Shown here: positions 11,436 to 20,052 of the stretch, in pieces
How the letters are laid out: each line of letters starts with the position of its first letter
How positions within the stretch are numbered: the first letter of the stretch is position 1
DNA from: Alteromonas sp. CI.11.F.A3
Lineage (GTDB): Bacteria > Pseudomonadota > Gammaproteobacteria > Enterobacterales > Alteromonadaceae
NCBI RefSeq assembly: GCF_032925565.1
Contig: NZ_CP136708.1
Coordinates: 372,001 to 436,000 of the forward strand
DNA: 64,000 nucleotides
Direction: 5' to 3'
Made by a program: the position numbers and the translations under genes
Notes under the pieces: generated by a model
Told to the model about the DNA's origin: nothing
Seen by the model: the letters and a program-made list of their open reading frames with translations, nothing else
Databases searched by the model: none

Positions 11436-11440
11436 GGAAT
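11436..11440 (+). repeat. Candidate 5-bp target duplication, glmS side (GGAAT)
   Basis: GGAAT ends 25 nt after the glmS stop codon, the spacing of Tn7 insertion in E. coli, and is followed at once by TGT. The same pentamer occurs at 20048-20052 at the other side of the island. Five bases can recur by chance. Confidence 0.45.
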
Positions 11441-11477
11441 TGTCACATCCAAACTAAGTTGGAAAGTCATGCATACG

Positions 11478-11501
11478 GGCTCCTATTTGAGGAGCCTTTT
11501 T
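11478..11501 (+). terminator. Rho-independent terminator downstream of glmS
   Basis: GGCTCCT (11478-11484), loop ATTTG, AGGAGCC (11490-11496) and TTTTT. It ends glmS transcription. If the proposed element boundary is right, this terminator belongs to the element. Confidence 0.85.
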
Positions 11502-11564
11502 GATGTAACTTGAGTGAAGTTTTTAAGAACTAAAATCACAAGTGTGAAATGGAATAGAAGAAAA

Positions 11565-12632
11565 TTACCTTTTCTGGTAATTCTTATTTTTGATATGAGA
11601 ATTGACCCAATCTTCAAGCACTTTGTGAGTAAATGAAATATTGTTGTTTGATCTACGAATAAAACCTTCCTGTTCAAGAATTTTTAACAAATAATTGCGT
11701 TGCCGATCATTTTTTATCAAGTTTTCTTCTGGGACTAGGTGTTTATGTGTAGACAGATATTTAGCAATGTTTTCTAGCTCATCACTATCGTCATCTGTTA
11801 ATCGAGAAGTAACGTTCTTCCACATTCTTTCGATTATTGCATCTAATTCAAATTTAAGATCTTCTGTCGATGTAAGTTCTAATCTATCGCTCTTAAAGCG
11901 ACTATCTAAAAGTGAGAAGATTGTTTTAATGATAATAGGGTAGCCCATATCAATTGGCGACATCAGATTAATAATCTTCTTAAGATATTTTTTATTCTCT
12001 GATGTTTTTATCAATTGAGATATAAGCTTTTTGGTGCTTTTTTTACTTAAAGCCTCGACAGTTAGTACTTTTAAGTCATTAAAAAAACTCACGTCGCTAT
12101 ATTGAAGCCCTAACTCATCAATATTTCTACCTGAAACTACCATTCTAATTTTATCATTAGTCATTCTTAAGTGGCGCAGTTCGTCCATCAATTGCCGGCT
12201 TTCTATTTCGTTCTTAGAGTTAAGTAATTCTGTAAAGTCATCAAGAACTAGTAACAAAAACTCGTTATCATCTAAACTATTTGCTACTTTGGATGCCAAT
12301 TTACTTAGGGATGAGTTTCTAGGCGTTTGCAGCGAACTTGATTTGAAAATTGAGCCTATAAGTGAATAATTTCGATGTACTACAGACAATTCTTCAATAA
12401 GCGATTTTCTTACTGAATCTAAATTTTCTCTATCATGATTAGCATTAATATAAATAGGTTTGAAGTTGTTGCGACGATTTTGAATGACATGCTCAAGAAT
12501 ATATGTTTTTCCAATACCTTTAGGGCCAATTAGCATTAAACTAGAATATTTTAAAGTTCGCCAAATTTGTTCAACTAATTCTTTCTGTTCATCTAGTAAT
12601 GCATCTTGAGCTCTTGGTTTATCACTTGACAT
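11565..12632 (-). CDS. STAND/AAA-like ATPase with C-terminal winged-helix region
   Basis: A 355-residue P-loop ATPase if started at the ATG at 12632, which has a GGAAG ribosome site and sits just after the extended reading frame of the upstream ATPase; an in-frame ATG at 12677 is less likely. Walker A is GPKGIGKT and Walker B LLLVLDDF, followed by a sensor-like segment RMVVSGRNIDE. The C-terminal third (LLKILEQEGFIRRSNNNISFTHKVLEDWV) resembles the winged-helix tail of archaeal-type and STAND ATPases. No nuclease, NADase or membrane effector domain is visible. It probably works with the neighbouring ATPase. A defence or regulatory role is inferred only from the island setting. Confidence 0.7.
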   Translation of the reverse strand: MSSDKPRAQDALLDEQKELVEQIWRTLKYSSLMLIGPKGIGKTYILEHVIQNRRNNFKPIYINANHDRENLDSVRKSLIEELSVVHRNYSLIGSIFKSSSLQTPRNSSLSKLASKVANSLDDNEFLLLVLDDFTELLNSKNEIESRQLMDELRHLRMTNDKIRMVVSGRNIDELGLQYSDVSFFNDLKVLTVEALSKKSTKKLISQLIKTSENKKYLKKIINLMSPIDMGYPIIIKTIFSLLDSRFKSDRLELTSTEDLKFELDAIIERMWKNVTSRLTDDDSDELENIAKYLSTHKHLVPEENLIKNDRQRNYLLKILEQEGFIRRSNNNISFTHKVLEDWVNSHIKNKNYQKR

Positions 12633-12712
12633 ACTAACTTCCGACAACTTTATTTTGTAACCAAGAACGACGTACAATTGAAAACATGAATTCTACAACC
12701 TTGTCGTTCATT

Positions 12713-13786
12713 TTAAGTAAATGATTCTTTTTCTAAAGCTGATATGATGCTTTTAAACAGTTTTCTCTCTTCTTCAGTTTGACAAACTTCATTATATAAA
12801 GTTTCCTCATCTAATTTTCCATTGTCTGCCTGTGCTACTTTATCTAATATATTCAGTACAAAATCACGAATGCTATTCTCATAGTAGTCTGAGTTTTGTA
12901 ATCTTAAAAAGTGATCTTTGTCAATATGCAACAAATCATTAGCATCGCAGATCATTTTCTGAACGATTGAGTCAACGTCCGCAACTGTTAATTTATGCTT
13001 AGCACCAAATAAGCTCAATGTAATTTGCCTTATGTAAAAAGGTACGCCGTCTGCATGCTCCCATATTCTATAAAGTACTTGATCGTCGTACTCAGTGCCT
13101 TCTTCATCAAAAAGTAGTTTTGCTACAACACTCCCTTCGTCTTCTTCGAGTGTAGGTATCGGGTAAATGAATGCTGTATTTACCATCGGAGGGTTTTCCC
13201 TTATTGCACCATTTAATTTATTAAGAATATGGTGCAATCCCAAAGAACCTGCGTATACCAAAGTCAGACGCTGGGAGTTTTTTTCCCCCATAGCTCTAAA
13301 AAAATTGAGTACTTCCGCTGCTGAATTCGGGTTTTGATTCACCATAATCTTATGCAGCAACAATGGCAACTCATCTAGAAAAATAACTATTTTTCCTTTA
13401 TTGCAAGAAATTAACGAGTCAATTGTCATTTCAGCTAAACTTTTCCAAGAGGCACTGTTTAGCTTAGGTAATGTTACAGGGCCTAACTTAAGTTCACTAA
13501 GTAAACACATCCACTTATTGAATTTAGATTTTGATTTATCAAATAATTTAATTCTATCTCTAGAATAAGAGTATAGATTATCAGCTAATCCTCTTTCGTC
13601 TTCTGCGCTTTGTAAATCAATCCAAATAGGAACAAAACCATCTTTAGGTTTGTCAGTCATGTCTCTCATGAGGGTTGTTTTTCCCATTCTGCGAGAGGCA
13701 TTGATTACAACTAACTTATTGCTATTGATTATCGTCCATAATTTTGATTTTAATGATTCTCGTGGAGTTAAAAAGTCCCTATCCAT
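12713..13786 (-). CDS. STAND/archaeal-type ATPase, probably frameshifted near its 3' end
   Basis: A 357-residue P-loop ATPase. Walker A is ASRRMGKT (Lys36) and Walker B IVIFLDELP (Asp137, Glu138). A YAGSLGLHHIL sensor segment and the VPFYIRQIT motif typical of archaeal-type ATPases follow. The frame stops at TAA 12713 after EKESFT. The +1 frame continues as YLKMNDKVVEFMFSIVRRSWLQ and more, like the usual family ending, and stops at 12634-12636, one base before the next gene's ATG. The ancestral gene therefore probably ended there and this copy lacks about 26 C-terminal residues. A ribosome site GAAAGG supports the start. Confidence 0.7.
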   Translation of the reverse strand: MDRDFLTPRESLKSKLWTIINSNKLVVINASRRMGKTTLMRDMTDKPKDGFVPIWIDLQSAEDERGLADNLYSYSRDRIKLFDKSKSKFNKWMCLLSELKLGPVTLPKLNSASWKSLAEMTIDSLISCNKGKIVIFLDELPLLLHKIMVNQNPNSAAEVLNFFRAMGEKNSQRLTLVYAGSLGLHHILNKLNGAIRENPPMVNTAFIYPIPTLEEDEGSVVAKLLFDEEGTEYDDQVLYRIWEHADGVPFYIRQITLSLFGAKHKLTVADVDSIVQKMICDANDLLHIDKDHFLRLQNSDYYENSIRDFVLNILDKVAQADNGKLDEETLYNEVCQTEEERKLFKSIISALEKESFT

Positions 13787-13856
13787 TTTTTGCCTTTCAA
13801 ATTAACTTAAAATATGTTTTTCAATCATCTTACTATAGTTTTTAAAGCTCAAAGTT

Positions 13857-14206
13857 TCATAAGGTAATATTCACTTTTCTTACAAACGCTCGCATATTAC
13901 TATTAGGTTGTTCTATTTCGAACTGCCGTATGCAGTTATTAATTTTTTCCATAGGCTTGATAACTTACCACGTCTTCTGTAAAGAGGGTGGATCCATGCT
14001 GTCGATAAGTAAGTATATTCACCTTTAGAGATCACCATTGTCACTTGGCCTATTAAACACTGCCTTATCTCTAGACTGTCAATCATTTGTATGTCTTCAA
14101 CTATCTGATAACCCTCTATATCTTCCCATGCATCATTTGAAGTATCTCATCTAAATCCATCGTTATATTCTTTACCTTGATAGCGACGTAAAGCAACACA
14201 AGCTTC
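13857..14206 (-). pseudogene. Broken GNAT-like acetyltransferase remnant
   Basis: The gap between HerA and the ATPase pair still reads as degraded coding sequence. One frame gives LRRYQGKEYNDGFR, a TGA stop, then DTSNDAWEDIEGYQIVEDI and STAWIHPLYRRRGKLSSLW. Near AYG the frame shifts by one base and continues FEIEQPNSNMRAFVRKVNITL to a stop at 13857-13859. WIHPLYRRRGKL matches the acetyl-CoA-binding R-x-x-G style of GNAT proteins and the downstream EIEQPNS fits that fold's tail. At least one nonsense and one frameshift mutation, plus loss of the 5' part, make it a pseudogene. The family call is tentative. Confidence 0.55.
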
Positions 14207-14212
14207 TTAACG

Positions 14213-15946
14213 TCATGGGGTTCTCCAACTTTCAGAATAATCAGCACTTTTTGACTCTGGTGGGTTATTGGGGAACTTCATTTTCACCGTCATTGGAAAT
14301 GGAAAATCAACTCCGAGTAGGAGCGCTTCACCTTGTCCCAAAGTCGGCAAGAATGAAGCTGACCTCTGATCAATTGCACCTACAGCTTTTTTTATAATTT
14401 CTTGATCGAGTTGATTAGTTAATCGGTGAACTATAAGTGTACCAATTTGGCTAAGTACATCTTCTGGAATATCTCTTGGCCTTTGTGTTGCGATAATAGT
14501 ATTTAAACCATATTTTCTGCCTTCTTTTGCGATGTTGCCAAAGGCATCTAGTTCAAACCTACTGCTATCGTCCCCAACTTTCTTATTCAGGAATTGATGT
14601 GCTTCATCAATAAATACTAGAAGTGGCGAGTTATAATTTATCGCTCCCTTTCTGGCTACAGAAAGTAACTTTCTTCCAATAGCATTTACTAAAACCTCTC
14701 TTGAATTAGCTTCAAAAGGTACCTCGGACAAATCAAGCCTGATAACTTGTTGAGTGTTTTGAGGTGAACAAAAGTTTTCAATTACACCAGATACTGTTGA
14801 TAAGGACTGGTTTACATCTATCATCCATTTAAGGTTAGGGTTACTAGAATAGGCTTTAATCCTAGATATTAAGTTTAGACAATGGCCTACATCATTGTCA
14901 GCTCTCCCACCCCACACAGTAGGATTTGGGTTTGCAGCGTTTCCTCCATTAGGCCATACGCATTCTTGGACAATTTGTTCAGCTAAATTCGAAAAATTCC
15001 AAGGAGTCGAGTTAATAGTTTGATTTATACCTAGCAAAGCTTGCTCAAATGGATATTTAGTTTGGGCAGCTTTCTTCAGCAAGAAGTTGGGGGAGATTGC
15101 TAAACCATGGCCTTGAAGCCTATAGTAATGGGTTACTACTTTTTGACTTTCTATTGCTGCATCTAATTTAGGGGATTGACTTTGCGCCGATGGACGTAAG
15201 AAGGCTCTTATATCAGAGTCTGTAAACTGCCAATGCGGGAACGTTAGTTGATTCTGAGGTGTTGCATTTGGATGGTTTCCTACATAATAGCTATGACAAT
15301 TTAAGGAGTTATATTCTCCTGTAGGATCAATAATAATGGCCTTGCCACCGGCAAGCTGTACTTGTTCAATAATGTTTGTCATTGAAAAGCTTTTACCACC
15401 ACCTGTTGTGCCTAGAATTGCACAATGTCGTGCAAACAGCTTTTCAGGAGTAACGTTAATAGTTACAGCTTCATCATGAGGAAGTGTCGCTATTGGCAAA
15501 TGATATTGATTTGAGCGTTCATCTTGTTTTCCCTCTGCAAGTAGCGAAACTAAGTGAGGGTGCGCAGAATAAATTTGACTACCTAACCTTGGATGAAACT
15601 TGATACCTCTATAGTTGCGGCCATTAGATGGCTCAATACTTACTAATAATTGAACCAATCCAATAGGATGATTAAGCGATGGCTTATCTGTTAGAGCGTC
15701 TACAGAGAGACGTTCTCCGCCTTCAAGCCATACTTTAACTAAACGACCAAATATTGCAGTTTCACCTACATCAATGAAAACAAATTCATTAACTTCACCA
15801 GCAGCAATTTTATTACCAAATGACCAACTTGGCTCGCCCGTGCCAGCTTGGGAGAGATTAACAATAACTTCTGTCGCGGAAACGTTTATTACACTCCCTA
15901 TCCGCCTAGATGAATCATAAGGAGAAAACCAATTCGCATAATCCAT
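14213..15946 (-). CDS. HerA/DUF87-type hexameric DNA translocase of the island operon
   Basis: A 577-residue FtsK/HerA-family ATPase. An N-terminal beta-rich HAS-barrel-like region (about 15-100) is followed by Walker A GTTGGGKS (residues 179-186), IIIDPTGEYN, Walker B LLVFIDEAHQF (Asp447, Glu448) and IIATQRPRDIPEDVLSQ with an Arg-rich sensor. It is last in a tight operon, 11 bp after the SIR2 gene, with an AGGAAA ribosome site. SIR2-HerA pairs are known abortive-infection systems in which HerA assembles with SIR2 into a large NAD-depleting complex; the same partnership is inferred here. It could instead feed DNA to the nuclease-like domain of the GHKL protein. Confidence 0.88.
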   Translation of the reverse strand: MDYANWFSPYDSSRRIGSVINVSATEVIVNLSQAGTGEPSWSFGNKIAAGEVNEFVFIDVGETAIFGRLVKVWLEGGERLSVDALTDKPSLNHPIGLVQLLVSIEPSNGRNYRGIKFHPRLGSQIYSAHPHLVSLLAEGKQDERSNQYHLPIATLPHDEAVTINVTPEKLFARHCAILGTTGGGKSFSMTNIIEQVQLAGGKAIIIDPTGEYNSLNCHSYYVGNHPNATPQNQLTFPHWQFTDSDIRAFLRPSAQSQSPKLDAAIESQKVVTHYYRLQGHGLAISPNFLLKKAAQTKYPFEQALLGINQTINSTPWNFSNLAEQIVQECVWPNGGNAANPNPTVWGGRADNDVGHCLNLISRIKAYSSNPNLKWMIDVNQSLSTVSGVIENFCSPQNTQQVIRLDLSEVPFEANSREVLVNAIGRKLLSVARKGAINYNSPLLVFIDEAHQFLNKKVGDDSSRFELDAFGNIAKEGRKYGLNTIIATQRPRDIPEDVLSQIGTLIVHRLTNQLDQEIIKKAVGAIDQRSASFLPTLGQGEALLLGVDFPFPMTVKMKFPNNPPESKSADYSESWRTP

Positions 15947-15957
15947 TAAAAATTTCC

Positions 15958-17208
15958 TTAGCTTGCATTCGCAGTTAATTTCTCGAAGAGTTTGAACAGA
16001 TCTTCTTCTGGGCTCTTTCCTCTTCTTTCTGGCAGTATATTGGCAAACTCTTCAAACGTTGAATCTAGGATTGCGATTCTCCCATCTCCATGTTCGATCG
16101 CGGAAAGTAGCAACTTTCTTATATCGGAATTAAATGAACCATTGGCGTTAAAAGGATCTTTTGTGGCAACCATCATCATAAATTCTGGATTTGTTCTTAG
16201 AGCCATAGTTAAAGCATTATTGATATGTTTATCATTAAATCCAAACCCTAGGCATAAGACACCTGTTTTGGGCTGCTTAACTGCATCTAAAAACGAAGTC
16301 ATCATGTCAAGATAAGGAGAGTCGTAAGAAGATTGATATTTACTGCTGCTTGGGTAAATAAATACAGGATCATCAAGGTTACTATCTGCGTGTACTTTCC
16401 TAACTCGTCCATTAATTTTACGCCAGTCAACGGAACCGTGCATTTTGTATAATTGGATGACATTGCTTATGTATGACCCGTCTTTGTTTCCCGATTGACA
16501 CCTGTTTACAATGTCATAGTTAAACCACATTGGATTAAAATATGAAGGGTTGGAAAACTCGAAGCCATCGATCACCACAAAGCCCGAATTAGAAGCAGAA
16601 TGCTCAAAAGCTAAATCATAATTTGTGGTAAATAATTTAAGTCTTTTTTGCTGAGCACTTCTTCTTCCCACAGCTCTTAAAAATTTACCGTGGCTGGTCC
16701 ATTTTGCCTCATCGCAAATTAGATCGGTAAAGTCTGTTTTTTCCAATATTATTTTTTTAGCTTTGTTGAGAAAGTTTTTGACCTGCTTGGTTCTAGTTGG
16801 TGATAAGTCACCTACAGCTAGAGAGGAATCACAAAGAGACAGTAGCAATTCAATATCGGGTTCAGCATTTCCCTGCGCATTTTTCTTTGTCTGAAGTTTA
16901 TTATAATTTGTTGCAGCTAATGTCAGCCTAAACAACTCAGGATTAGCTTGCATGCATGCTTCCCAAAGGTGCCACATGCTCGGTGCAATATATGGCTGGT
17001 CTCGTTCATTAAAAGTTAGCGATGTTCCTGAACCTGCTAATACAATTAAGTTATCAATATCTAAAGTCTTATTGATGAACTTCAAAAGCGGCTTTAGATC
17101 TTCATTTGCTTTATCATTTATTTCGATTTCCTTCGGCTCTTTTTTCCCTGATATATCGCTTTTGGAGATATCAGCTGAAATAAATTTTATTTTCACAGGC
17201 TCGCGCAT
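15958..17208 (-). CDS. SIR2-like NADase of the island operon
   Basis: A 416-residue SIR2-domain protein of the kind used as NAD-hydrolysing effectors in bacterial immunity. The nucleotide-binding motif is LAGSGTSL (residues 58-64), TTNYD contains the conserved Asn196, KMHGS contains the candidate catalytic His257, and LGFGFNDKHI near 320-329 closes the Rossmann fold. A charged 40-residue N-terminal segment precedes the domain. No zinc-ribbon cysteine pairs of true deacetylases are evident, which favours NADase over deacetylase. It lies 14 bp after the GHKL gene and 11 bp before HerA, with a GGGAAG ribosome site. The trigger cannot be read from sequence. Confidence 0.87.
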   Translation of the reverse strand: MREPVKIKFISADISKSDISGKKEPKEIEINDKANEDLKPLLKFINKTLDIDNLIVLAGSGTSLTFNERDQPYIAPSMWHLWEACMQANPELFRLTLAATNYNKLQTKKNAQGNAEPDIELLLSLCDSSLAVGDLSPTRTKQVKNFLNKAKKIILEKTDFTDLICDEAKWTSHGKFLRAVGRRSAQQKRLKLFTTNYDLAFEHSASNSGFVVIDGFEFSNPSYFNPMWFNYDIVNRCQSGNKDGSYISNVIQLYKMHGSVDWRKINGRVRKVHADSNLDDPVFIYPSSSKYQSSYDSPYLDMMTSFLDAVKQPKTGVLCLGFGFNDKHINNALTMALRTNPEFMMMVATKDPFNANGSFNSDIRKLLLSAIEHGDGRIAILDSTFEEFANILPERRGKSPEEDLFKLFEKLTANAS

Positions 17209-17222
17209 TCTTCTTCCCTAAA

Positions 17223-19175
17223 TTATTCTTTAGTATTTTTGGTTAATTCAGCATAGTTTTTTCGCAAAAATTCCAAGCCATCAGAACTGTCTATATTGAT
17301 ATCTAGTTGTTGCCTTATAAACTCTAAGCGATGCTTGCATTCATTTATGAGCTCCCCCCAAGTTTTTACCCAAATAGTAATGCCTTTGGCGCTATGCAAG
17401 ATACCTCGGTCTAATTTGTCACCACTGAGCCTATGTTTGGTATAAGAATCTAGTTCATTTGAGATAATCCAGAAGTGCCAATTAGTATCTATAGTGTTAA
17501 ATCGTTCATCATCAGCTACCGCAAAAGCGTATGATTCGATTTGATTAATCTCTTTTTGTCCTATTTTTACTTTAGGTGCTTTCAATTCAACAACTAAGTG
17601 CTCACGCTCTGTAGGATGATTTCGAGCAATATTTCTGGTAAGCATTAAATCTACAATACCAACCGAGTCATCTAATCTTTTCACTGGTGTATCTGTGACA
17701 ATCTCAATGCCTTGGTTATCTAAATGTTTACGTAATACCTGTGTTAAAGATTGGTCGCTTACAGATAGCGCAAACTGTTCACCGAAGATCCAAGTATTGT
17801 CTTCTATTATTTTGTGCAACTGGCTTCGCTCTTTGAGCGCTTTCTTTAGTTCGGGATTAAATATTATTTCTTCAATTCCAGCTAAAAATTTTAATCTGTC
17901 GGTTATAACTTTTGTGGTGCTGATAATGGCCGAAAGAGATGCATCTTTGAGTAACTCTGCAAAGTCTTTTTGTTTTTGTTCACTTAAACTCAGTACTTCA
18001 GTCAAAATTGTGTGAAGATCACTGGGCTGAGTTGAGACAATTTGCTTTAGCAGACTCAATTGTAATTTCTTCAATTGCAATGTTGATTTGTCAAACTCAG
18101 GAACCAGTTCGTTGATATTAAGCGCAAGGAAATCAAACATTTGTTTTTCAGCAACTTCAACATGGCCACTAACGGCATTTTTATATGGATAGACATTTTC
18201 GTTTTTCCATTTTTCCAATTGATCTGAAGATTGCTCAATTTTTCTTCTTATCAAGTAATCTTTGATATGTTTAGTGGCTTCTTCTATTGGCGCTTTCAAA
18301 GATGTTTCTAATTCACCTAAACCAAGCGTACCTTGCCTGTTTAGCTCCGTAATATGATCAGATTTCAAATATGCAGTAAATGAAACATTCCCGCTTCCTT
18401 TAACCTTTTTGTCTAGTGGTAGTAGAGGAAAACCCGCTTTGTTACATAGCTGAATTTGATTTTTTGTTGATATTTTCCATTCAATTATTTGAAGTTCATA
18501 ATTAAATTCTTTTCCCTCATAAAACACCTTAGGTAACTCAATTACTTCTGTATTAGATATTACAGAATCAGGATCGATACGCACTCCATCAATATAAAGC
18601 ATTACATCTTTGTACGTGGATAAGTAGGTAGCAAATGTCGAAGTAAGATGTTCTGCTAGTCGACCATTAGTTAGTGAGGGAAATTCTTTCAGCGGTTCAT
18701 AAATAGAGACGTTAGTTCCCGGTTTAGTAATTTGGCTTTGTGCTTGTGGGCTTAAGGAGAAAGTTTTCTTGTTATCTGCAAATCCTTGTATTTTATATTC
18801 AAAAAAAACACCGTCTTTTGAGCTGAATCTAGTATTCCACTCAACGACTCGACCAATTGAAAATGATTTGAACCTGCCTTGACCTTCTTTTCCGTGTAGA
18901 GCCCTGCCTGTTGGTGACAAACCATTTGTACTTTTCCAAGAGCCACCAAGGCCCCTAAAATAAGTTGATGCTTTATCATAGTGAATACCATGCCCATCGT
19001 CTTTTATATGAATGGCAGATAGCCCTATATCGTCAGCATCTACTAATACTTCAACTTTGGTGGCATCAGCATCTACAGCATTCCATACCAATTCAGATAT
19101 AGCGTTTAGAGCGTTGGCCTTGGATACCTTATCTAAATGATCCCCCTGCACTTCTACTTTAATGTGCTTGTTCAT
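17223..19175 (-). CDS. GHKL (MORC/Hsp90-like) ATPase fused to a PD-(D/E)xK / DUF4263-like nuclease domain
   Basis: A 650-residue two-part protein. The N-terminus is a GHKL ATPase: N-box ELVWNAVDADATKVEV (Glu28, Asn32, Asp36), G1 box DDGHGI (59-64) and G2 GKEGQGRFKSFSIG (95-108). A helical middle (about 300-470) leads to a C-terminal domain starting ERSQLHKIIEDNTWIFGE. That domain has GIVDLML (Asp509), VVELKAP (Glu530, Lys532) and NQIESYAFAV (Gln545), a PD-(D/E)xK layout as in Shedu/DUF4263 proteins. GHKL ATPases act as ATP-gated DNA clamps, so a DNA sensor-nuclease is likely. It is coupled to SIR2 and HerA genes and has a strong AAGGAAGG ribosome site. Confidence 0.85.
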   Translation of the reverse strand: MNKHIKVEVQGDHLDKVSKANALNAISELVWNAVDADATKVEVLVDADDIGLSAIHIKDDGHGIHYDKASTYFRGLGGSWKSTNGLSPTGRALHGKEGQGRFKSFSIGRVVEWNTRFSSKDGVFFEYKIQGFADNKKTFSLSPQAQSQITKPGTNVSIYEPLKEFPSLTNGRLAEHLTSTFATYLSTYKDVMLYIDGVRIDPDSVISNTEVIELPKVFYEGKEFNYELQIIEWKISTKNQIQLCNKAGFPLLPLDKKVKGSGNVSFTAYLKSDHITELNRQGTLGLGELETSLKAPIEEATKHIKDYLIRRKIEQSSDQLEKWKNENVYPYKNAVSGHVEVAEKQMFDFLALNINELVPEFDKSTLQLKKLQLSLLKQIVSTQPSDLHTILTEVLSLSEQKQKDFAELLKDASLSAIISTTKVITDRLKFLAGIEEIIFNPELKKALKERSQLHKIIEDNTWIFGEQFALSVSDQSLTQVLRKHLDNQGIEIVTDTPVKRLDDSVGIVDLMLTRNIARNHPTEREHLVVELKAPKVKIGQKEINQIESYAFAVADDERFNTIDTNWHFWIISNELDSYTKHRLSGDKLDRGILHSAKGITIWVKTWGELINECKHRLEFIRQQLDINIDSSDGLEFLRKNYAELTKNTKE

Positions 19176-19190
19176 AAACCTTCCTTGATA

Positions 19191-19430
19191 TTAAATTAGA
19201 TCTGTATTCAAGCCTGCGGCCTTTAGTCTTTTGGTTAAATTTCGCATTTTACTGAATTCTGTGCCCAGACTTTGGTTTAGCCCCATTTCCTCACAAAACT
19301 CTTTAGCCGTGATGTGCTTTAACTCATCAGCAAACTTAATCATTTGTAGATGAAGTTCAGCAGTGTACTGATTACGAGGTGCTTCAGCTAAAGCTAGTTT
19401 TATTTGCTCAAATATCGCTTTATTAGACAT
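19191..19430 (-). CDS. Small HTH-like protein, first gene of the island operon
   Basis: A 79-residue, soluble, helical protein. The segment ITAKEFCEEMGLNQSLGTEFSKMRNLTKRLKAAGL looks like a helix-turn-helix core (helix, turn at MGLNQ, recognition helix). I do not recognise a named family with certainty. It is the first gene of a tightly packed operon (15 bp to the GHKL gene) and a perfect 24-bp palindrome lies 25 bp upstream of its start, so autoregulation of the module is the simplest reading. It could instead be an accessory subunit or antitoxin-like inhibitor. No clear Shine-Dalgarno sequence precedes the ATG, so the mRNA may be near-leaderless. Confidence 0.65.
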   Translation of the reverse strand: MSNKAIFEQIKLALAEAPRNQYTAELHLQMIKFADELKHITAKEFCEEMGLNQSLGTEFSKMRNLTKRLKAAGLNTDLI

Positions 19431-19455
19431 TGATAAAGATTAGATTTTAACCGTT

Positions 19456-19479
19456 TTGCTAAATTAGCTAATTTAGCAA
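19456..19479. promoter_or_regulatory. Perfect 24-bp palindrome upstream of the island operon (candidate operator)
   Basis: The half-site TTGCTAAATTAG (19456-19467) is followed directly by its exact complement to 19479, with no spacer. It lies 25 bp before the ATG of the small HTH-like gene, in the expected promoter or leader area. Binding by that protein is inferred. Confidence 0.6.
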
Positions 19480-19686
19480 TGATATGCAAAGACTACCGTC
19501 AAAGAATAACACTAGCGGTCATTTTATGTTCGTGAGTTACTGATTTTTAAATTAAGTTCCATTAATACATGTAGTTAATTACTTCCCCATGGTCCATTTG
19601 AATCCTTGTTTACTATAATTTGGTTACGTAAAAATCGTCCATAATTCAAGAATTGAATCTAGTTTTACAGTTTACGTTTAAATTAG

Positions 19687-19878
19687 AAGGTAAAGCGGAT
19701 CGCGAACTATGTTCAAAATACAAGAAAGTGTGAAAAGTGGCTTAACGAAGGTCGTGGGCAAGGACGTAATGAAGATTACAAGCCATGGTTGCATGTGCGT
19801 GAGGTGCCTTCGCACGGCTTATCTTTTCGTCATCCCATCAAAATAACCCCCTACGACTACTGGAGAACATACTCTAGA
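19687..19878 (+). pseudogene. tnsA: Relic of tnsA (Tn7-like transposon endonuclease), N-terminal fragment
   Basis: An open stretch with no start codon in frame reads KWLNEGRGQGRNEDYKPW, then LHVREVPSHGLSFR, and soon a TGA stop. This matches the conserved TnsA N-terminus (kW-x-EGRGqG...DYkPWl-v-evpS-G-s-R), for example RIKEGRGQGHGKDYIPWLTV in Tn7 TnsA. After SFR the similarity ends (HPIKITPYDYWRTYSR), so the catalytic core and everything downstream is gone. TnsA cuts the 5' transposon ends together with TnsB. Finding it beside glmS, the Tn7 target, marks the island as descended from a Tn7-like insertion. It reads away from glmS. Confidence 0.7.
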
Positions 19879-19966
19879 TGAAGCTCTTGGTATGCATACC
19901 TGATATGTGCTTTTCCTCCAACATCGCATATTTAGATTGATAAGTGACCGCTGTTTCATGTTAGTC

Positions 19967-20047
19967 AGTTTCAAACATTGATATAGTGTATTTTAGTGCG
20001 TTTTAAAGTTTAGGTATCGATAGTTTCAAACTTCAATTAGCTTGCAA
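19967..20047. repeat. Candidate Tn7-like end with AGTTTCAAAC repeats
   Basis: AGTTTCAAAC occurs at 19967-19976 and 20022-20031, with a related AAGTTTAGG near 20006. The last copy lies 16 bp inside the proposed boundary. Spaced 20-bp-type repeats are how TnsB sites look in Tn7-family ends. The glmS-side end carries an inverted TTTCCAACTT at the same depth. Confidence 0.4.
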
Positions 20048-20052
20048 GGAAT
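20048..20052 (+). repeat. Candidate 5-bp target duplication, distal side (GGAAT)
   Basis: Second copy of GGAAT (first at 11436-11440), directly after the repeat-bearing end. It overlaps the AAGGA ribosome site of the next gene. Confidence 0.4.

Follow-up and report, generated by a model that had tools for sequence, protein, structure and literature searches.

A likely mosaic anti-phage operon led by an RptR-family repressor at the glmS site of Alteromonas sp. CI.11.F.A3

RptR-family repressors were published in 2025 from the RRDM defence island of enteropathogenic Escherichia coli (EPEC); RptR was shown to bind and repress, and the family is linked most often to Type I systems (54/117; Zhang et al., PMC12255303). 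In Nezha, a SIR2-HerA pair is reported to deplete nicotinamide adenine dinucleotide (NAD+; PMC11559045), and paraMORC3 proteins combine a GHKL-S5 ATPase with PD-(D/E)xK motifs (Iyer et al. 2008, PMC2292703). This work describes an operon of Alteromonas sp. CI.11.F.A3 (genome G000) in which relatives of these parts stand together. It lies in a window of 64,000 nucleotides, namely positions 372001 to 436000 of a complete 4.66-Mb chromosome, and is composed as follows (positions in the window; aa, amino acids):

19456 to 19479, no strand: probable operator, perfect 24-bp palindrome TTGCTAAATTAGCTAATTTAGCAA, with one exact RptR box and two near boxes
19191 to 19430, minus strand: RptR-family repressor, 79 aa (Pfam HTH_73 PF24718, E 3e-29; 73% identity to PDB 9r2z)
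17223 to 19175, minus strand: paraMORC3-like GHKL-S5 ATPase with a C-terminal PD-(D/E)xK-type domain, 650 aa (Pfam, alignment and the description in PMC2292703)
17307 to 17858, minus strand: nuclease-like C-terminal domain of the GHKL protein, residues 440-623 (D509, E530, K532 and Q545 invariant in 15/15)
15958 to 17208, minus strand: SIR2 NADase-type protein, 416 aa, with Asn196 and His257 (PADLOC PDLC04075, 2e-206)
14213 to 15946, minus strand: HerA ATPase, 577 aa, Walker A at 179 and Walker B at 444 (PADLOC PDLC04103, 5e-298)

The four genes (14213 to 19430) run in one direction with gaps of 15, 14 and 11 bp; all four reading frames are open and the catalytic residues are intact. On re-checking, the layout behind a palindrome proved to be as the original prediction, made from the DNA letters, had given it, and the 79-residue helix-turn-helix-like protein, the SIR2-HerA defence pair and the HerA ATPase that it named are borne out by the matches given here. 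The operon is a new assembly of known parts. The whole operon gave no match in E. coli genomes; in the open papers searched (subscription papers, preprints and supplements lay outside the search), we found no description of these parts assembled in one operon, nor of RptR-type genes before Avs2, GmrSD, Type III or SIR2-HerA operons. We consider it likely that this is a mosaic anti-phage operon, brought to the glmS site by a now-decayed Tn7-like element and repressed by RptR, in which SIR2-HerA stands beside an independent clamp-nuclease.

The 79-aa protein matches the solved repressor in both sequence and fold, by which it is an RptR-family repressor. Residues named for DNA contact and dimerization of RptR in PMC12255303 (E25, E58, S60, K61, L69, A72 and L74) are all kept. 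As a single-sequence query it found nothing in viral contigs; an alignment query found one relative there, with 54% identity. DNA matches to the repressor, mostly partial, occur in 797/5426 E. coli genomes.

TTGCTAAATTAGCTAATTTAGCAA is the sole perfect 24-bp palindrome in the window and is probably, as judged from its boxes, the RptR operator. It contains an exact RptR box, TAGCTA, within TTAGCTAA, and a 6-bp box with one mismatch lies 9 bp off on each side. Such boxes were first seen in five loci and then checked in 39 other, held-out copies of PF24718. From 48 copies, four with near-duplicate upstream DNA were removed. Exact TTAGCTAA lies upstream in 25 of the remaining 44 (32 sites, with 0.39 expected from dinucleotide shuffles), and in 2 of 242 control upstream regions taken from the same loci. 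The 40 site pairs within 40 bp are mostly phased, with 19 spaced 9 bp and 15 spaced 18 bp. Within the subfamily of the window, which was set post hoc by an APRN-like string, 20/29 held-out copies have the exact box and 23/29 have two near boxes; neither is found in any of the 10 held-out copies outside it. PMC12255303 defines the box as the 6-bp TAGCTA, TAGATA, TATCTA or TATATA, counted within 100 bp upstream. By that definition, the 34 subfamily copies divide into 28 with at least two boxes, five with one (including the window) and one with none; outside the subfamily (n = 10) one copy has at least two boxes and one has a single box. At least two boxes are reported for only 54 of 80 RptR promoters (PMC12255303), so two boxes are not required for membership. 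Three diverged HTH_73 copies at another locus (L115, G751:C2:1805000-1814700) lack the TTAGCTAA operator and form a second branch of the family.

For the regulon in its own genome, a single 14-base pattern with at most one mismatch was searched, a pattern whose reach does not extend to single or variant boxes. It occurs in six places besides the window operator (eight strand hits in total, against two for the reversed control), all in long reading frames or at their edges and none clearly ahead of one. These placements at most suggest that RptR control is local to its own operon in this genome.

The SIR2 protein matches SIR2_2 (Pfam, 2e-10), and its N196 and H257 align to the NYD and HGS motifs found in the solved SIR2 chains 8yhx and 8j4u; the TTNYD and HGS motifs of the original prediction are present. 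HerA matches HerA/DUF87 (Pfam, 6e-19) and PDB 8xau (1e-33) and carries GTTGGGKS at 179 and VFIDEAH at 444. PDLC04075 and PDLC04103 are the PADLOC models for SIR2-HerA (Nezha), and only 11 bp separate the two adjacent genes. By adjacency, models and active-site residues, the pair is assigned to Nezha. Relatives of the SIR2 protein were matched in 147 plasmid records; as a single-sequence query, it found nothing in viral contigs.

In the GHKL protein, the N-terminal GHKL and S5 ATPase motifs are intact (HATPase_c_3, E 1e-15). Asp509, Glu530 and Lys532, which the original prediction had singled out, are present and, together with Q545, invariant across the 15 aligned homologues. HSDR_N_2 matches the protein weakly (24.8 bits, cut-off 25); among the 15 family members, it is matched in 12 and PDDEXK_9 in two. 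Predicted strands and helices of the C-terminal domain follow an order that fits PD-(D/E)xK. A profile of this domain gave no match among PDB sequences, and with the full model VIA-align returned no PD-(D/E)xK chain in its rows, a search that the ATPase dominates and that is uninformative on the C-terminal domain. The GHKL ATPase with a nuclease-like C-terminal domain stands from the original prediction, whereas its DUF4263-like label does not: no Pfam match to DUF4263 (Shedu) was found in any of the 15 members at E ≤ 0.01, and that identity was rejected. On domain composition, paraMORC3 fits the protein better. Marinomonas atlantica carries a GHKL gene of 95% identity to it. Related paraMORC3-like genes occur in 27 viral contigs (L157-L183) and among the tail genes of two Pasteurella phages (L010, L013), suggesting that this is prophage-carried defence cargo.

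The original prediction had also put forward a distinct four-gene system and asked whether its genes recur together elsewhere. We compiled 58 GHKL loci and set aside three that are the window and seven that duplicate a place already counted. This gave 48 places: 27 in viral contigs, nine in other genomes, seven in plasmid records (7 of 48, the other 41 being left out), three in named genome contigs and one in each of the two phage records. Flanking DNA is short at some of them, and certain viral places are nearly identical. In the DNA around each place, none of the 48 matches the SIR2, HerA or 79-aa protein of the window (E < 1e-5); one (L003) has a weak HerA-like match at E 3e-5. The SIR2 protein was matched in 26 of 247 genomes of the order (its own included), and seven others are close (E ≤ 1e-50). 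HerA adjoins SIR2 in six of these seven places, and a GHKL or 79-aa gene lies in none of them within the 7-17 kb examined. With the set absent from every place opened, 48 for GHKL and seven for SIR2, a conserved four-gene system was rejected.

The same counts bear on a reading in which the GHKL clamp-nuclease and SIR2-HerA act together as one composite machine, for instance by sensing DNA ends and licensing NAD depletion. Gaps of just 14 and 11 bp and a single operator speak for it, as does a common setting, since SIR2-HerA (L039 and L040, after a Type I HsdR) and the GHKL gene (L130, L002) both adjoin Type I restriction genes elsewhere. In addition, genome G180 (L053) has SIR2-HerA with a distant GHKL protein (23% identity) about 18 kb upstream of SIR2. 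However, neither module accompanies the other in the 48 and seven places above, and we regard such a machine as unlikely. Because of this lack of co-occurrence, the GHKL module is taken as independent of SIR2-HerA.

Genes led by RptR-type repressors were compared in the 34 non-redundant subfamily copies, the next gene being one on the same strand within 300 bp. Loci were sampled unevenly: the set draws on 16 of 74 plasmid records, 4 of 810 E. coli records, 24 of the 25 non-own matches in the order-level search and three other genomes of the class with a match. A recognisable defence or restriction gene comes next in 25/34 copies, the set of the window included; this count stands without a background rate, and nine of the 25 (L048, L049, L051, L084, L085, L090, L098, L100, L102) were assigned by record annotation, by scanning a twin or the second gene, or by first residues in common, in place of a scan of their own first gene. 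The next gene belongs to Type I (L048, L049, L084, L096, L098, L099, L102) or Type III restriction (L051, L100), GmrSD (L097), Avs2 (L101, L104), Gabija (L085), Hma (L124), NsnABC (L106) or the C3a139 HKD-Snf2 kind (L087, L090, L103, L107). Others are followed by a DruE-like helicase broken by the contig end (L116), an Mrr-helicase (L112, Pfam only) or a methyl-directed Type II enzyme (L122). Two have a methylase next: in L108 a cytosine methylase, accompanied by a GHKL/HEF_HK protein and a response receiver, and in L110 one of the N6 type, accompanied by a HerA-like ATPase. TrlF follows after 465 bp in L050, and a Type II enzyme lies on the opposite strand in L088 and L093. Nothing recognisable follows six copies: L091, L092, L105, L123 and, with neighbours outside the scan, L089 and L109.

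The original prediction of a dedicated regulator holds as to a regulator with an operator and fails as to dedicated, as RptR-type genes also precede unrelated defence operons. Chances seem about even that RptR with its phased operator is a general portable control cassette for anti-phage defence, beyond Type I, which Tn7-like and other mobile elements keep at one chromosomal site while the defence genes behind it are swapped; a single phage-triggered derepression signal would then serve NAD depletion, STAND sensing, restriction and DNA-clamp nucleases. In E. coli, two of the four opened loci lead Hma (L121, L124) and two, at the thiM site, have one small gene or nothing behind (L122, L123), so that many copies there may be orphans. 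The L122 locus, in the thiM region of the laboratory strain E. coli BL21-AI, combines an RptR relative and operator boxes with a small methyl-directed-restriction-like gene.

The operon is part of an insert that separates glmS from the next host gene and has these further features:

11441 to 20047, no strand: 8.6-kb insert, absent from the same-species genome G047
11436 to 11440, no strand: left direct repeat GGAAT, 5 bp, flanking the insert
20048 to 20052, no strand: right direct repeat GGAAT, 5 bp, flanking the insert
11441 to 11467, plus strand: Tn7-like left end beginning TGTCACATCC, with one GTTGGAAAGT box (three such boxes in the relative L133)
19687 to 19836, plus strand: tnsA remnant (a 50-aa stretch with 86% identity to the first piece of the broken L133 tnsA)
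12713 to 13786, minus strand: AAA-type ATPase, 357 aa (reading frame and domain scan)
11565 to 12677, minus strand: AAA-type ATPase, 370 aa, AAA_22/TniB-like (reading frame and domain scan)

glmS is present in 57/57 good-quality genomes of the genus, and in G047 the site is empty, with the next host gene directly after it. The insert follows glmS and has a 5-bp target repeat, as a Tn7-like element does. The end TGTCACATCC is, from general Tn7 biology, presumably of the Tn7 type. A second genome of the genus, G007 (L106/L133), shares the left end, tnsA remnant, repressor, operator and glmS site; its GTTGGAAAGT box is tripled with 20-bp spacing, and the second piece of its broken tnsA matches TnsA (PF08722, 5e-12). 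The left end with its GTTGGAAAGT box, and the tnsA remnant that adjoins the repressor in G000 as in G007, indicate a Tn7-like element. Neither intact transposition genes nor both ends were found in the insert, just the tnsA remnant and one single-box end, so this is a relic and not an active element. The paired AAA-type ATPases that share the insert (11565-13786) may be additional cargo or the remains of a transposition ATPase.

Behind the repressor, G007 carries NsnABC together with a PDC-M11A protein and a small AAA_17 ATPase. At glmS in G238 (L108/L134), which belongs to another genus of the family, an RptR-type gene (68% identity) precedes a C5-methylase, a Response_reg_2 protein and a protein of 990 aa that combines two GHKL ATPase domains with HEF_HK. 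We infer payload exchange behind the repressor at glmS from very few cases, since among 59 genomes of the genus the repressor occurs only in G000 and G007.

The mosaic operon could work as follows. A Tn7-like element, since decayed, would have brought it to the glmS site. The first gene's product, by analogy with published RptR, would bind the 9-bp-phased operator and repress its own operon; infection would lift repression, and the three effectors would rise. SIR2 and HerA would, by homology, form a Nezha-type complex that destroys NAD+. The fold and motifs of the paraMORC3-like protein suggest that it would close on DNA as an ATP-driven clamp and position its PD-(D/E)xK nuclease, acting as a second module and not as a SIR2-HerA subunit. 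Several points weigh against this account. Strong RptR repression requires two intact sites (PMC12255303), and with one exact box in the window control may be weak. Gaps as short as 11-15 bp could mean that the effectors are truly coupled. No clear Tn7 end is seen on the right side of the insert, and no terminal inverted repeat was found between the insert ends. The nuclease fold is read from motifs, hidden Markov model matches and predicted secondary structure.

The single exact box, the decay of the surrounding element and the published ties of RptR mostly to Type I systems would also suit a chance relic of little function, in which RptR once ruled another system and unrelated genes were left behind. 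Four open frames with kept catalytic residues and gaps too tight for remnants between the genes argue against it, and we hold a relic to be improbable. That the 79-aa protein is instead an antitoxin or chaperone of the downstream enzymes, as a small gene in first place before possibly toxic effectors might be, is very improbable given its identity to a repressor published as binding and repressing and the presence of at least one RptR box upstream of 33/34 subfamily copies, against 2/10 outside the subfamily.

Much more is understood of how anti-phage systems act than of what switches them on. If many unrelated ones share one small repressor and operator, knowing the trigger of derepression would account for the control of an entire class of defence operons; if the RptR cassette is general, its operator could be used as a lead to new defence genes. 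A natural comparison is at hand in the glmS sites of this genome, of another in its genus and of one in its family, where like switches stand before unlike payloads.

Shedu (SduA, DUF4263) is generally known to use a PD-(D/E)xK-type nuclease domain in defence. The operon would share such a domain with it; the ATPase here is GHKL, and DUF4263 is matched in none of the 15 family members. The likeness to paraMORC3 extends to the GHKL and S5 ATPase, the C-terminal restriction endonuclease-fold (RE-fold) nuclease motifs and an occurrence that is partly standalone in proteobacteria. Here, however, the gene lies within a SIR2-HerA operon, and the main text of PMC2292703 mentions neither Sir2 nor HerA. 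Like Nezha, the operon has neighbouring SIR2 and HerA genes with catalytic and Walker motifs; unlike in Nezha, a GHKL nuclease and an RptR-type repressor precede the pair. With RptR of the EPEC RRDM island it shares a 79-aa repressor as the first gene of a defence operon, conserved helix-4 residues and TAGCTA boxes that lie ahead of the start codon with a spacing of 9 bp, although only one box is exact here and a tnsA remnant lies alongside. In EPEC the repressor leads a Type I system with DarTG2, whereas in Alteromonas sp. CI.11.F.A3 it leads SIR2-HerA and a GHKL nuclease.

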